Source of the DNA: an uncultured Bacteroidales bacterium
GTDB taxonomy: Bacteria > Bacteroidota > Bacteroidia > Bacteroidales > Bacteroidaceae
Reading direction: 5' to 3'
NCBI GenBank assembly: GCA_946055515.1
Contig: CAMGGA010000005.1
Span: forward strand, 1 to 35,678
DNA: 35,678 nt
In this document: in pieces, positions 5,293-17,581 of the stretch
Layout of the letters: each line of letters opens with the position of its first letter
Position numbering within the stretch: position 1 is the stretch's first letter
The notes under the pieces: model-generated
Told to the model about the DNA's origin: nothing
Seen by the model: the letters and a program-made list of their open reading frames with translations, nothing else
Database searches by the model: none
Position numbers and translations under genes: made by a program

Positions 5293-6006
5293 TTACAGGA
5301 AAAGCGTTTCGAGCGTGTCCAAGCGGGTGATGATGTGGTCGGGGAGGGTTTCGTCGCGCTCTTTCGTTTCCCACTCTTCGCCCTTGAACCAGACGGTTTG
5401 ACATCCGATTTCCTTGGCGGGCACGATGTCTTTCCCATAGCTGTCGCCCACTACGACGCATTCGTCGGCGCGGCAGCCTGCCGCTTCAACGCCCAGCTGC
5501 CAAATCGCTGCATCGGGCTTGCGCACACCGACCACGGCGCTCTCTACAATGCGCCCGAAAAGATGGGACAAGCCGTAGCGCTGCAGGACGGTCGGGAGAT
5601 TGCCGTAGAAGTTCGAGACCATGACGAGTTTGTAGCGCTGGGCCAACCGTTCGAGCACCTGGCGCGAACGCTGGGTTTCGCGGGCGGCATAGCGGTCGCA
5701 GTGGTCCGTGACGGCCTCGACGAACTCGGGCACACGGGCAGCGTCGGCCGGGGAAAGGAGTTTGTTTTTCAAAAGATAGTCAAACTCTATCGTCACTTTC
5801 TTGAACAGCAGCGTGCGGAAGTCGTCCTCGGGCTGGATGTGGGGCTCGCGGGCCAAGGTGCGTTCGCCGTGAACGTAGGCATCACGGAAGTCAGCCTCGG
5901 AAACGGCCACGCCTGCCGCACGGTAGCCTTCCCACAGGACGTAGGACCAATGGCGGGCTGCGGTGTCCAAGGTGCCGCCGTAGTCGAAAAGAAATGTTTT
6001 AACCAT
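5293..6006 (-). CDS. HAD-superfamily hydrolase with variant motif I (DYGGT)
   Basis: 237 aa; N-terminal FLFDYGGTLD, VMVSNFYGN, GVRKPDAAIW and VVGDSYGKDI follow HAD motif order. Confidence 0.88.
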   Translation of the reverse strand: MVKTFLFDYGGTLDTAARHWSYVLWEGYRAAGVAVSEADFRDAYVHGERTLAREPHIQPEDDFRTLLFKKVTIEFDYLLKNKLLSPADAARVPEFVEAVTDHCDRYAARETQRSRQVLERLAQRYKLVMVSNFYGNLPTVLQRYGLSHLFGRIVESAVVGVRKPDAAIWQLGVEAAGCRADECVVVGDSYGKDIVPAKEIGCQTVWFKGEEWETKERDETLPDHIITRLDTLETLFL

Positions 6007-6036
6007 TTGCTAATCAGTATTTGGAATTTCTGTTTG

Positions 6037-7047
6037 CTATGCCTTCTCCTTCATGAGTTTCTGGTTGCCCACCTTGACCAAGCCCACGCCTATACAGATC
6101 CACACCAATTCGCGTACACGGGTGTAGAGGCTCGTGAAGATGCCGATGCCCGAGGTGCTCAAGCCAAGGATGCGCACTATCATGAGCAGGCCGCCCTCGC
6201 GCGCTCCGAGCTGCATGGGGAAGAAGAAGAGGAGGTTGCCGATGAGCGACGAGAAGGCCAAAACCAGCACGGCATCGAGGAAGGTGAGGCTCACCCCAAG
6301 CGAAAGCAGGATAAAATAGTACTCCAAGGCGTTCACCACGCGCGCTACATATTCCCACAGCAGGGAAAGGAAGAAGGCACGCGGCTGGGAGTGGAGGTAG
6401 GCCACGCCGTCGTCGATCTGCTGCATGGCGGGCAGGTTCTGCTCGTAGATGCGGCGCGCCTTGTGCTTCACAAAGGGAAGATGGAGCAGGGGCTGGAAGA
6501 GTTTGACGACGAGCCCTTTCTTGTAGCAAAGGCGGAAGAGCACCAGCACGAGCAGTACGGCGAGGCTGAACAGTCCGAAGAGGCCCCAGAGGAAAGGTGT
6601 CATTTTCTCGGTATAGGCAATGGCAAACAACACGGCGGCGGTACTCCACAGGCAGATGTGGGAGAGGATGTGCATCATCGAATAGAGCACGACCGAGGAG
6701 GTGGCGCGCGCCAGTCCGATGTGCGCTCCCAGTTCCATCACCCTGTACGGGCCGCCCCCGAAGCCGAAGGGGGTGGTATAGCTGAAGGCAAAGCCGGAGA
6801 CGGTGAGCTTGTAGGCATGGCTGAAGCTGAGGTGCTTCGTGTGCTGCCCAGAATTGACAATGATCTGGAAGGCCCAGGCATTGAACGCATAGACTATGAC
6901 CCAAACGCCAATCACGGCGGGGAAGTAAAGGCCCGCTCGGCCCAGGTTGTCGAGCAACTGTGCGTAATCGACCTCAAAGGTGCAAAGCATCACCACGATG
7001 CTGGCCAAGCCGAAGAGTAGGAAGAGATTGCGGTAGAGTGGCTTCAT
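6037..7047 (-). CDS. Lysylphosphatidylglycerol synthase TM / flippase-like (UPF0104) membrane protein
   Basis: 336 aa, multiple hydrophobic segments; AFSYTTPFGFGGGPYRVMEL and LGAREGGLLMIVRILG resemble the UPF0104 (YbhN/AglD-like) family. Confidence 0.82.
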   Translation of the reverse strand: MKPLYRNLFLLFGLASIVVMLCTFEVDYAQLLDNLGRAGLYFPAVIGVWVIVYAFNAWAFQIIVNSGQHTKHLSFSHAYKLTVSGFAFSYTTPFGFGGGPYRVMELGAHIGLARATSSVVLYSMMHILSHICLWSTAAVLFAIAYTEKMTPFLWGLFGLFSLAVLLVLVLFRLCYKKGLVVKLFQPLLHLPFVKHKARRIYEQNLPAMQQIDDGVAYLHSQPRAFFLSLLWEYVARVVNALEYYFILLSLGVSLTFLDAVLVLAFSSLIGNLLFFFPMQLGAREGGLLMIVRILGLSTSGIGIFTSLYTRVRELVWICIGVGLVKVGNQKLMKEKA

Positions 7048-7050
7048 GCT

Positions 7051-7986
7051 TTATGCGTAGTTTGACAGTTCCATGCGACGACAGAGCTGCTCGTGGCGCG
7101 CACGCATGTAGAAAAAGAGGAGGTTCATGACTACTACTTCAAACACGAAATACAACCAGGGCTCTCCCAGCAAGAGTACGACATAGAGCACGATGGCGCG
7201 TGTGTTGAACGTGAGGATGTTGGCATATTTCATGAGCGGCAGACTTCCCGCACGGAAATCGCGGCGCAAGGCTTCGGGGAGCGGTCCCGCGCCGTACTTT
7301 TCCTTGAGCTGGCGGCGGAAACGCTGGAAGGCGGGGGTCATCTGTTCTTGCGAACGGGTGTAGTTTCCATAGAAATAGAGAAACACTTTCCACACGCCGT
7401 CGCGCTTCCAGCTGAGCGAGTGGAGTTCTGCGCGCAGCTTCTGGAAACTGTCGAGCTCGCTGCCCTGTTCGCCCTTGAGAAAATAGAGGTGGATGTTGCG
7501 GTAGTAGTCGGCCAGCTGGCATTGCTTGCCATGACAAATAAATCCCGAGAAGGCAGCCAACAGCCAAATCCAGATGCCCCACGGGGTCTCCGTGCCCGGC
7601 ATGGGTTGGTCCTGAAGGCGAAGGCAGATGGCTGCATAGATGGCGAAGAACCACACGTCGCCCGCAAACCCGTCGAGGATGCGGCCCCAGCGCGTCTTCT
7701 TGCCCGTCATGCGGGCGAGCTGGCCGTCGGCGCTGTCGTAGAGATTGGCCCACACGAGAAGGGCAATGCCTATAAGCGTGTGCGTGAGGTCGGACCAATA
7801 GAAGCAAACGCCCGCGGCGGCGCCGAGGATGATGCTCAGGATGGTGACCACATTGGGGTGGATGTTGAAATGATTGAAAAAGCGTGCCCACAAGAGGCCT
7901 AGCGGACGAGTGAAGTGGATGTCGAGCCATTCCTCGGTGTCACCCGACTTGAATGTACTTTGGAGCTGGGTAGATGAAGAAGACAT
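7051..7986 (-). CDS. CDP-alcohol phosphatidyltransferase family protein
   Basis: DSADGQLARMTGKKTRWGRILDGFAGD matches the CDP-alcohol phosphotransferase signature (Dx2DGx2ARx8Gx3Dx3D). Start taken at MSSSSTQLQ (7986); the ORF extends to 8046. Confidence 0.9.
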   Translation of the reverse strand: MSSSSTQLQSTFKSGDTEEWLDIHFTRPLGLLWARFFNHFNIHPNVVTILSIILGAAAGVCFYWSDLTHTLIGIALLVWANLYDSADGQLARMTGKKTRWGRILDGFAGDVWFFAIYAAICLRLQDQPMPGTETPWGIWIWLLAAFSGFICHGKQCQLADYYRNIHLYFLKGEQGSELDSFQKLRAELHSLSWKRDGVWKVFLYFYGNYTRSQEQMTPAFQRFRRQLKEKYGAGPLPEALRRDFRAGSLPLMKYANILTFNTRAIVLYVVLLLGEPWLYFVFEVVVMNLLFFYMRARHEQLCRRMELSNYA

Positions 7987-8078
7987 TGTTGGTGTGAGAA
8001 TATGAACGATTTCGTTAAGCCAAAAGCCCCAAGGGAGCTTGCTCACTTGGGCTTGGCGAGAAATCGCACTTTTAAGAA

Positions 8079-8957
8079 CTAAATTTGGGTGGAAGGCTTG
8101 CCCTCCAAGCGTCCTATAAGGTGAGAGGCAATGGCCTTTGCGGCTTCACGCCGGCAGGTGGAGAAACTGGGCCAATCGTTGAAGTCTATCAGCACGGGGA
8201 TTCCGTCGGGGCGGACTATGGCGTCGCCGCCATAAACCCCGAAGCCGGATGCGACGGCTGCACTGTCGGCCAACTGCTTCAGTGCCGCTGGGTCGAAAGC
8301 ATAACCTTTGGGGGTACCGTTGTGCTGCTCCAGGCCAAATTTGGAAAAGCCGCCTTCGGCCGAGGGATAGTGAAACTGGAAAAAGTCGGTTTGCGCAACG
8401 CCGTAGAACTTTACAAGGTCGCCCTCTGCATGTTGCACAGCGACGACCTCCCCCACTCCGCGCCCAGCGAAATCGCTCAGCGCCTTCACGGCTTCAGCCC
8501 GGTCTTTTACAAAAACGACATCGCCCGGAGTCTGGGCACAGGCATCGGAGCGTTTCAACCACACGGGAAACTGAAGGGGAAGCGCGTCGATCGCCGCTGC
8601 GCCATCGGCAGCGGACACGCAGCAGAAGGCGGGTTGCGCCACTCCAGCTTTTGCGAAAGCCTGCATGAGCCCTGCACGTGTGGCGGCGGACAAGGCAAGC
8701 GCGCTGTTCACCACGCAAAGTCCTTCGTTTTGCTCTGCCTCACTGAGCACTTCCAATACATACTGGCCCCGAGCCATCGAAAACACCAGGTCAAATGCCT
8801 GCAGGTCTACACTCACAAAAAGGTCTTCACTGAGCACTGACACATCGTGCCCACGACGATTGAGCCGCGACACTACGGCGGCAAAGATGGCCGCGTCGCG
8901 GTCAGCGGAATTGGGACTGAAACGGGGAGAACGGCTCACGCCTAATATATGCCACAT
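8079..8957 (-). CDS. ATP-grasp-like protein (RimK/ITPK-like fold suspected)
   Basis: ATG 8957 (MWHILGVSRSPRFSPNSADRDAAIF); FPVWLKRSDA, VAVQHAEGDLVKFYGV and IPVLIDFNDWPSF resemble ATP-grasp nucleotide/metal motifs. Family is a by-eye call. Confidence 0.65.
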   Translation of the reverse strand: MWHILGVSRSPRFSPNSADRDAAIFAAVVSRLNRRGHDVSVLSEDLFVSVDLQAFDLVFSMARGQYVLEVLSEAEQNEGLCVVNSALALSAATRAGLMQAFAKAGVAQPAFCCVSAADGAAAIDALPLQFPVWLKRSDACAQTPGDVVFVKDRAEAVKALSDFAGRGVGEVVAVQHAEGDLVKFYGVAQTDFFQFHYPSAEGGFSKFGLEQHNGTPKGYAFDPAALKQLADSAAVASGFGVYGGDAIVRPDGIPVLIDFNDWPSFSTCRREAAKAIASHLIGRLEGKPSTQI

Positions 8958-8958
8958 A

Positions 8959-9696
8959 CTAATTATCCTTTTCTGAAAAGCGATTGTCTTCGCTGCCCTC
9001 GGCGAGGAAGGCTTCGGCCTTTTCAATGTCCGAGGCATGGTCCACATCCAGAATTTTCGAGAAAGGCCACGCTTCGAGCTGCAGGCCGTCCTCCACCAAG
9101 GCGCGCTGGAAATTACGCATACGGCTCCGGCCTTCGCGAAGACAGCGGTCGAGGGTTTGCAGGGCATTGGGGCGCAGCAGGTAGATGCCGCCCGAAATGA
9201 AACGGTCGTTTTCGCAACGGTCGTGGAAGCCCGTTATGCGCAGGTTATCGTTCGTCGCCACATAGAGCGGACTTTCATCGTCAATGTAGTCCGTCACGGC
9301 CATGCAGCCGTCGAGTGCCGTCTGTTGGAAATGGCGGATATAGTCAGCAAATTCCGTTTCGCGGAAAATCGTATCTACCGTGGTCAGGCAGAACGGACCA
9401 TCGCCGAGATAAGGGGCCAGTTCCGCAAAACTGTGCATGGAACTGGGCGTGGTCTTCACCACGAGGCGCACATCATCGGCAAGTCCCTGCGCCTGGAGTT
9501 CGCGCAGATGTTGTTCGGTGAGGGGATTGAGGCTATTGACAATCACCACGATTTCCTCCGCCCCATTGTTGCGGAAGATGCGCAGCAGGCGGTCAATCAT
9601 CGCCTCGCCGCGCAGTTTCACCAAAGGTTTCGGAAGGGCCACGCCTTCCTGCTGCAACCGCGATCCCTCGCCTGCAGCTATGATAGCATATTTCAT
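8959..9696 (-). CDS. Nucleotidyltransferase (sugar/alcohol-phosphate NTP transferase family)
   Basis: 245 aa; MKYAIIAAGEGSRLQQEGVALPKPLVKLRGEAMIDRLLRIF is the NTP_transferase signature. Confidence 0.9.
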   Translation of the reverse strand: MKYAIIAAGEGSRLQQEGVALPKPLVKLRGEAMIDRLLRIFRNNGAEEIVVIVNSLNPLTEQHLRELQAQGLADDVRLVVKTTPSSMHSFAELAPYLGDGPFCLTTVDTIFRETEFADYIRHFQQTALDGCMAVTDYIDDESPLYVATNDNLRITGFHDRCENDRFISGGIYLLRPNALQTLDRCLREGRSRMRNFQRALVEDGLQLEAWPFSKILDVDHASDIEKAEAFLAEGSEDNRFSEKDN

Positions 9697-9704
9697 GATT
9701 TTTG

Positions 9705-9870
9705 AGGGTTATGGGACATAAGGTTATGAGGTTTGGGTCGCTTCGCTCGGAAGTTATGGGGTTTGAAGTTATGAGGTAATAAAGTTACTGCTTGAGTGGC
9801 AGCCTTTAGCCAGTTACTTTATAACCTCATAACCTTAACCCTTATAACTTTGGGAAAAATAACCACATAA
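9705..9870 (-). repeat. Structured intergenic element, family member B (upstream of the nucleotidyltransferase)
   Basis: Inverted repeat GTTATGAGGTAATAAAGTTACTG (9768-9790) / CAGTTACTTTATAACCTCATAAC (9811-9833), 21 of 23 paired, 20-nt loop; minus-strand sequence matches member A. Confidence 0.75.
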
Positions 9871-9878
9871 CCTGGGAA

Positions 9879-10979
9879 CTATCGTTCCCTCCGTTCCTGA
9901 TAAATCTTGGGCAACGGATTTTGGTAAGCCATCTCGAAGTGCAGTCTGTTGCGCCAAGCATCGATTGCCGTGAAAATAGCCTGACGCATGGAACGCTCGT
10001 CGGCTGTGCCCATACCAGCAATGTCGTAGGCCGTGCCATGGTCGGGAGAAGTGCGCACGAAGGGGAGTCCTGCGGTAAAGTTCACGCCATCGCCGCCCGA
10101 GAGTGCCTTGAAGGGAGCAAGCCCCTGGTCGTGGTACATGGCCAGCACTCCGTCGAACTTGCGGTACATGCCCGAAGCGAAGAAGCCATCTGCGGCAAAG
10201 GGGCCGTAGCAGGGGAGTCCAGCCTCCACCAGCGACTTGATGGCGGGTGCAATCACCTCTTCCTCCTCCTGGCCAATCACGCCGTGGTCACCCGCATGCG
10301 GATTGAGGGCCAGGATAGCGATGCGCGGGGCAGACACGTTGAAATCCCTGCGCAGCGATTCGTAGAGCAAACGCGCCTTCTCGGCAATGCGTTCCTCGGT
10401 GATGGCGAAAGCAACTTCCGAAATCGGCAGGTGCGTAGTAACCAACGCCACCCGCATCATGTCGTTCAGCAAAATCATCAACGGAGAAGTCTCCTCCGTG
10501 CCCAAGCGGTCCTGCAGATACTCCGTATGACCCGGGAAACGGAAATTGGCGCTCTGGATATTCGCCTTGTGGATGGGAGCCGTCACCAGCACATCCACCA
10601 GCCCTGCCTTCACGTCGGCCGTTGCCTGCTCGAGCGCAAGAAAAGCTGCATGTCCAGCCTCGCTGCTCAGTTTTCCAAATTCCACTTTCACCTCGTCGTC
10701 GCTGCAGTTCACCAAGTTCACCTGCCCATCAGCAGCCTCCTCGGCCGATGCGACCACACGGAGCGGCACGTTCAGCCCCAAGTGTTTGGCTTGGAAATCC
10801 GCCACTTTGGCGTGGCCGTAAATGACAGGCGTGCAGAGTTCCAACATGACAGGTTCAGCGAAAGCCTTGAGAATCACCTCCCAGCCCACACCGTTGGTGT
10901 CACCCTGCGTGATGGCCACGCGCACCTTGCCCGCAGCCGCCGTGTCCGGCATATTTTGTTCTTTGGTTATAGAATTCAT
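9879..10979 (-). CDS. pdxA: 4-hydroxythreonine-4-phosphate dehydrogenase
   Basis: VRVAITQGDTNGVGWEVILKAF, LNPHAGDHGVIGQEE, YHDQGLAPFKAL; start at MNSITKEQNM (10979). Confidence 0.94.
   Translation of the reverse strand: MNSITKEQNMPDTAAAGKVRVAITQGDTNGVGWEVILKAFAEPVMLELCTPVIYGHAKVADFQAKHLGLNVPLRVVASAEEAADGQVNLVNCSDDEVKVEFGKLSSEAGHAAFLALEQATADVKAGLVDVLVTAPIHKANIQSANFRFPGHTEYLQDRLGTEETSPLMILLNDMMRVALVTTHLPISEVAFAITEERIAEKARLLYESLRRDFNVSAPRIAILALNPHAGDHGVIGQEEEEVIAPAIKSLVEAGLPCYGPFAADGFFASGMYRKFDGVLAMYHDQGLAPFKALSGGDGVNFTAGLPFVRTSPDHGTAYDIAGMGTADERSMRQAIFTAIDAWRNRLHFEMAYQNPLPKIYQERRER

Positions 10980-14383: not shown

Positions 14384-17581
<3,198 letters not shown>

Follow-up and report, generated by a model that had tools for sequence, protein, structure and literature searches.

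A five-gene module of Bacteroidales as a putative Kennedy-type pathway for an inositol lipid head group

The window analysed in this study, positions 1 to 35,678 (forward strand) of contig CAMGGA010000005.1 from the uncultured Bacteroidales assembly GCA_946055515.1, carries a compact module of five genes encoding a nucleotidyltransferase (NTP), an ATP-grasp protein, a CDP-alcohol phosphotransferase, a UPF0104 membrane protein and a HAD hydrolase. On balance, we favour the view that these genes form a Kennedy-type pathway for the head group of an inositol lipid, most likely inositol phosphoceramide, whose steps we infer from the gene families and the company they keep in other genomes. That the product is an inositol lipid as such we regard as highly likely. 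Judged by gene content and synteny, the module is a member of the putative alternative inositol lipid cluster predicted from Bacteroides vulgatus by Heaver et al. in 2022 (PMC9246714), so that it was previously known as a prediction; what seems new here is a proposed role for the ATP-grasp protein, the logic of the cassettes and the argument about the lipid acceptor.

The cluster tags given for B. vulgatus are BVU_RS13095 for the NTP, BVU_RS13105 for the transferase and BVU_RS13115 for the HAD protein, and the main text of Heaver et al. names a neighbour resembling lysylphosphatidylglycerol synthase and makes no mention of an ATP-grasp gene (PMC9246714). The two skipped tags would fit the positions of the ATP-grasp and UPF0104 genes. 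All three tagged families, with the LPG-synthase-TM neighbour, occur together in the window, and the rlmN-pdxA synteny is seen through five Phocaeicola congeners, B. vulgatus itself lying outside the set. In these five (Phocaeicola coprophilus, barnesiae, sartorii, massiliensis and paurosaccharolyticus) the genes run rlmN-pdxA-NTP-ATPgrasp-transferase-UPF0104-HAD-MIPS, where MIPS is the gene for myo-inositol-phosphate synthase. The window module differs in having no adjacent MIPS, which is unlinked in P. copri too. Heaver et al. also reported a transferase-HAD fusion in P. veroralis and the production of phosphoinositol dihydroceramide (PI-DHC) by B. vulgatus and P. veroralis (PMC9246714). We found no subsequent work confirming the cluster by experiment in the open-access literature, subscription papers being outside the search.

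An earlier sequence-only reading of the window had described five packed minus-strand genes with gaps of roughly 1-95 nt, had given them the family labels used here, had pointed in general terms to inositol-lipid clusters of gut Bacteroidetes and had proposed neighbourhood conservation as a check. All of this held up. Each open reading frame (ORF) runs from ATG to stop without internal stops, the gaps are 1, 92, 3 and 30 nt, four of the proteins pass Pfam cut-offs, the fifth is placed by the fold of its AlphaFold model, and the clusters it pointed to correspond to the published one. The same gene order is found in most genomes of the genus and across Bacteroidales. ATP-grasp homologues are present in 32 of 37 same-genus genomes and in some other Bacteroidales families; 20 inspected loci keep the order NTP, ATP-grasp, CDP-alcohol transferase, UPF0104, HAD with only occasional gaps or rearrangements, and most of them sit next to rlmN and pdxA. 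Among 77 named loci from public genomes, which include many truncated contigs that affect the gene counts, we counted the NTP in 69, the transferase in 70, HAD in 69, UPF0104 in 46 and a same-strand MIPS in 30. The recurrence of the module is beyond chance.

The NTP matches PF00483 (2.2e-12) and PF12804 (NTP_transf_3, 3.3e-12), and its profile finds the solved structures of IPCT (4jd0, 8.9e-9), LicC (1jyk, 1.4e-6) and AfIPCT (2xme, 3.2e-6); against the archaeal IPCT-DIPPS model NF041135 it scores 1.4e-12 (47 bits, where the cut-off is 580). For the transferase, which matches PF01066 (CDP-OH_P_transf, 1.8e-12), the best solved relatives are AF2299 (1.6e-18), AfIPCT-DIPPS (1.9e-6), PIPS (8.6e-6) and CEPT1 (7.4e-5), and its scores against the phosphatidylinositol phosphate (PIP) synthase models of the BT_1523 / mycobacterial type, NF052561 (BT_1523, 5e-4) and NF045883 (6e-10), lie far below their cut-offs. 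The UPF0104 protein matches PF03706 (LPG_synthase_TM, 2.8e-24) and the HAD protein PF00702 (1e-14). Chemistry of the CDP-alcohol type is supported by the comparative evidence.

The head group, left open by the sequence-only reading, very probably has inositol as its precursor, as indicated by MIPS adjacency, by the co-occurrence of MIPS and ATP-grasp genes and by the substitution of a TM0415-like kinase. Adjacency extends beyond Phocaeicola, since MIPS directly follows HAD also in L050, a locus of another family. Across 61 relatives the ATP-grasp and MIPS genes are both present in 31, occur singly in 5 and 2 and are both missing from 23 (Fisher 8e-10, uncorrected for kinship); in a sample of the phylum, MIPS is found in 13 of 15 ATP-grasp genomes vs 51 of 378 others (1.5e-9, likewise uncorrected). 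Within the genus, 27 of 32 ATP-grasp genomes have MIPS; the five that lack it are on average less complete (74% vs 85%). In the congeners MIPS is not next to the module, and its region also contains a receptor gene and, in several of them, ruvB. In G250, a complete genome, the module occurs without MIPS. In its family, f36, all 17 inspected loci (that of G250 included) read SPT-GNAT-receptor-NTP-ATPgrasp-transferase-UPF0104-HAD-PfkB, where SPT is serine palmitoyltransferase, and the PfkB protein has its closest match in TM0415 (5e-26), which phosphorylates myo-inositol, though with a high Km (PMC5931981). The f36 PfkB protein is probably ATP-dependent, because the pyrophosphate-specific arginines of TM0415 are absent from its alignment. 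In this one family, where the presence of MIPS was checked in G250 alone, a predicted TM0415-like myo-inositol kinase stands in for MIPS.

Most operons of family f41 end in MIPS and additionally encode MlaE with an ABC ATPase and an MlaD protein, together with a class III aminotransferase and an oxidoreductase that is nearest to inositol 2-dehydrogenase (3.9e-21, below the cut-off). Loci L137, L138, L140, L141 and L143-L146 combine the inositol module with, mostly, Mla lipid-transport genes, an aminotransferase and an inositol-dehydrogenase-like gene, an arrangement that suggests an amino-inositol lipid. The ATP-grasp gene is tandemly duplicated in L138, L140, L141 and L143. A separate arrangement is seen in L151-L154, where a distant transferase (its match too weak for a confident call in L153 and L154), MIPS and a nucleotidyltransferase are adjacent, without ATP-grasp or HAD.

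The ATP-grasp protein matches no Pfam or NCBIfam family, and no PDB entry when searched as a single sequence, while its AlphaFold model (pLDDT, the predicted local distance difference test, 92.7) has a clear ATP-grasp fold. All 77 homologues carry a DxN metal motif followed by PSF or PSY, and this loop aligns with the loops DVNVFPSY and DLNYLPSF of the inositol-phosphate kinases E. histolytica ITPK and AtITPK4. ATP-grasp ligases usually carry an ExN metal motif. In fold and in its DxN..P[SG][FY] metal loop the protein resembles the ITPK enzymes, from which it differs in its weak profile similarity and in having no match to PF05770 (Ins134_P3_kin; 0/17 members at E<=1). ITPK1 has been described as acting on inositol-3-phosphate (PMC12077091). 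The ATP-grasp gene is fused to the NTP gene in L210, L235, L238 and L045, and the transferase gene to HAD in L198. Fusions of a kinase with a nucleotidyltransferase are common for successive steps, and the two kinds of fusion together suggest that a kinase precedes the cytidylyltransferase and that transfer precedes HAD. In the inspected cassettes HAD is present wherever ATP-grasp is, the two appearing and disappearing together, and the assignment of both genes to the inositol branch is supported by the comparison of genomes. We suggest that the ATP-grasp protein is a new bacterial inositol-phosphate kinase; of the earlier account, the fold was borne out by the model and the role that it had left open is given a proposal. 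The idea that the protein is an inositol kinase replacing MIPS was rejected, as it occurs with MIPS and, in f36, beside the separate TM0415-like kinase.

At the same rlmN-pdxA site, the congeners G009, G010 and G022 carry a related transferase together with UPF0104 and an IspD-like cytidylyltransferase, and they have no NTP, ATP-grasp, HAD or MIPS; in G011, also without MIPS, the transferase and IspD-like pair lies at a different location. UPF0104 is retained in non-inositol cassettes too. A further pairing is found at L087:7019-10215 and L148:8671-10777, where a TagD-like cytidylyltransferase and an SDR protein accompany a transferase of the window family (with UPF0104 in L087). In a maximum-likelihood tree, the transferases paired with IspD-like and TagD-like enzymes nest inside the inositol transferases, and for this reason the family appears to draw its CDP-alcohols from exchangeable cytidylyltransferases, ATP-grasp and HAD belonging to the inositol version. 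Some caution is needed, since G015 and G017 carry the IspD-like pair beside MIPS in addition to a full module and their IspD-like enzymes are possibly inositol-related. IspD-like and transferase genes replace the inositol genes in L081, L082 and L084 (at the rlmN-pdxA site) and in L083, L085 and L086, the pair standing beside MIPS in L085 and L086. The L087 and L148 loci are candidates for making phosphoglycerol-dihydroceramide, a lipid reported from P. gingivalis, P. copri and B. vulgatus. In L050 (3833-6508), L100, L150, L158-L160, L162 and L165, a HisC/CobD-like pyridoxal phosphate enzyme is accompanied by a second NTP and by a distant CDP-alcohol transferase in which the canonical motif is intact; in L050 this set lies a few genes downstream of serine palmitoyltransferase, and it may represent a route through CDP-ethanolamine to ceramide phosphoethanolamine.

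The acceptor is, in our estimate, probably ceramide. SPT stands beside the module in all 17 f36 loci, SPT-like genes (44-66% identity) are present in 14 of 14 complete ATP-grasp genomes, and the genome of the window has one at C4:6444-7625 (59%). In the incomplete congeners G003, G018 and G023, which have the module, no close SPT was found. P. copri makes dihydroceramide phosphoinositol (PMC10865984), and B. vulgatus has ceramide phosphoinositol (Cer-PI) with no detected diacyl phosphatidylinositol (PI), while BT-type species have both (PMC10056535). Because B. vulgatus has Cer-PI without diacyl PI, direct transfer to dihydroceramide is favoured and an AUR1-like HAD disfavoured.

In the pathway that we propose, MIPS, encoded elsewhere in the genome, would supply inositol-3-phosphate, which the ATP-grasp enzyme would phosphorylate, possibly at C1. 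The NTP would couple the product with CTP to give CDP-inositol, possibly retaining the 3-phosphate, and the CDP-alcohol transferase would pass phosphoinositol(-phosphate) to dihydroceramide (or diacylglycerol), after which HAD would strip the extra phosphate and UPF0104 would flip the finished lipid. A kinase together with HAD would fit if D-1 needs activation while MIPS gives the D-3 phosphate. The order of kinase and trimming steps is put forward tentatively. More tentative still is the full scheme, in which an inositol bisphosphate made by the ATP-grasp kinase becomes CDP-inositol phosphate and is transferred directly to ceramide before HAD trims it, with the transferase head group swapped through cytidylyltransferase cassettes (inositol, IspD-like and TagD-like, one of them at the same site). 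Compared with the scheme of Heaver et al., our proposal adds a kinase, a trimming step and a ceramide acceptor. B. thetaiotaomicron BT_1522-BT_1526 likewise makes MIPS-fed inositol lipids, with a phosphatase after the transferase and LPG-synthase-TM and receptor-like neighbours, but uses CDP-diacylglycerol, the PIP synthase BT_1523, the PIP phosphatase BT_1525 and the AUR1-like BT_1522. Archaeal IPCT/DIPP synthase shares a cytidylyltransferase and a CDP-alcohol phosphotransferase acting on inositol phosphate; it is bifunctional, whereas the window has two separate proteins scoring far below the family cut-offs, and it has neither ATP-grasp nor HAD and an inositol phosphate acceptor. The eukaryotic Kennedy pathway (CEPT1/CHPT1) shares the use of a CDP-alcohol with a lipid acceptor and the weak profile match of the transferase (7e-5), and differs in head group and in the last motif Asp, which is replaced in the window family.

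Several observations weigh against this pathway. No MIPS was found in the genome of the window, whose assembly is 76% complete, and the sequence-only reading had seen none in the window; that part stands, while as biology the absence is best explained by an assembly gap. The MIPS locus is probably unassembled because ruvB and the MIPS-linked receptor gene were also not found in this genome, with weak partial matches only, and true absence of MIPS was set aside on the same grounds. The high Km of TM0415 leaves its true substrate doubtful. Clades f38 and f45 have MIPS together with a distant transferase and a nucleotidyltransferase but neither ATP-grasp nor HAD, and therefore the proposed ATP-grasp kinase is not needed in every MIPS-linked system. 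The ATP-grasp profile matches ITPK structures weakly (E 0.002-0.02), not above PurK or RimK; Foldseek places the model nearest carboxylate-amine ligases (Ddl, RimK, LysX/ArgX), with no ITPK among its top 50 fold matches. The transferase motif DxxDGxxAR(x8)GxxxDxxxD is complete except for its last Asp, which is Gly108 here and is replaced by G, S or A in each of the 74 motif-matching homologues of the named loci, whereas distant relatives keep it; its fold and Pfam matches (PF01066, AF2299) being clear, the protein is a divergent relative of the CDP-alcohol phosphotransferases, not a textbook member, and its predicted catalysis is not of the textbook type. Finally, motif I of the HAD protein is DYGGT, with Gly at +2 and no second Asp, and its homologues have DYGGT or DFGGT (one DYGAT) in place of DxDGT.

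The alternative closest to the published account is that of Heaver et al., who proposed for the same cluster that the NTP makes CDP-inositol straight from inositol-3-phosphate, the transferase makes PI-diacylglycerol from diacylglycerol and an AUR1-like HAD converts it to PI-dihydroceramide (PMC9246714), the ATP-grasp protein being accessory. The resemblance of the NTP to IPCT and the one transferase-HAD fusion agree with it, but the Cer-PI of B. vulgatus without diacyl PI does not, and the ATP-grasp gene, as constant as the named genes and fused to the NTP, is given no role. HAD proteins of subfamily IA are also soluble, unlike AUR1, and we consider this scheme unlikely. Nearly as likely, though a little less so, is a switch of isomers, in which HAD dephosphorylates inositol-3-phosphate, the ATP-grasp enzyme re-phosphorylates inositol at C1 and the NTP forms a D-1-linked, eukaryote-like CDP-inositol. 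Such a switch accounts for the joint gain and loss of ATP-grasp and HAD and for the NTP-ATP-grasp fusions; however, f36 keeps both genes though a TM0415-like kinase replaces MIPS, where the switch needs neither, and HAD is fused to the membrane transferase, not to ATP-grasp.

If the ATP-grasp protein were instead a ligase that attaches a carboxylate, such as an amino acid, to the head group, giving an acylated inositol lipid, its nearest folds would be explained, and the f41 aminotransferase and inositol-dehydrogenase-like gene suggest an amino-inositol open to acylation. The invariant DxN motif resembles inositol-phosphate kinases and not the ligase ExN, in most clusters no gene would supply an amino group, and reports of Cer-PI from B. 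vulgatus and P. copri describe no modification of this kind, so that we judge this improbable. A product other than a membrane lipid, either a soluble di-inositol phosphate or a decoration of the capsule, would suit the resemblance of transferase and NTP to the solute-making archaeal IPCT/DIPPS, but is very improbable given that UPF0104 belongs to the module, that f41 operons carry Mla lipid-transport genes and f36 loci SPT, and that cluster-bearing species make PI-dihydroceramide (PMC9246714).

Table 1. Coordinates of the module genes and the flanking pdxA gene in the window.
Feature	Positions	Strand	Length	Proposed role or remark
NTP (NTP_transferase / MobA-like)	8959-9696	minus	245 aa	proposed CTP:inositol-phosphate cytidylyltransferase
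ATP-grasp enzyme	8079-8957	minus	292 aa	proposed inositol-phosphate kinase
CDP-alcohol phosphotransferase (membrane)	7051-7986	minus	311 aa	proposed CDP-inositol(-P):ceramide transferase
UPF0104 / LPG_synthase_TM membrane protein	6037-7047	minus	336 aa	proposed lipid flippase
HAD hydrolase subfamily IA	5293-6006	minus	237 aa	proposed phosphatase after transfer step
pdxA	9879-10925	minus		TIGR00557 1.2e-110; flanking syntenic anchor, outside pathway

The module is flanked by glyA on one side and pdxA on the other (Table 1). Homology of pdxA begins only near residue 31 of its ORF as listed, and the gene adjoins the module in many Bacteroidaceae loci. The AT-rich spacer between pdxA and the module (9700-9873) contains a 40-nt inverted repeat (83%) as well as repeats around ATAACCTCATAACCT. 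Elsewhere in the window, 14384-17554 encodes a LacZ-type beta-galactosidase that scores just below the NF052611 cut-off.

The inositol sphingolipids made by gut Bacteroidota are similar to signalling lipids of eukaryotes, and in B. thetaiotaomicron they affect its fitness in the host. The alternative cluster, so far known as a prediction, is present in many Prevotella-type species. The comparison made here across several hundred genomes gives its constant and overlooked ATP-grasp gene a proposed role, argues against HAD as a ceramide-inositol synthase and predicts ceramide as the direct acceptor. The natural cassette swaps make the pathway testable one gene at a time.

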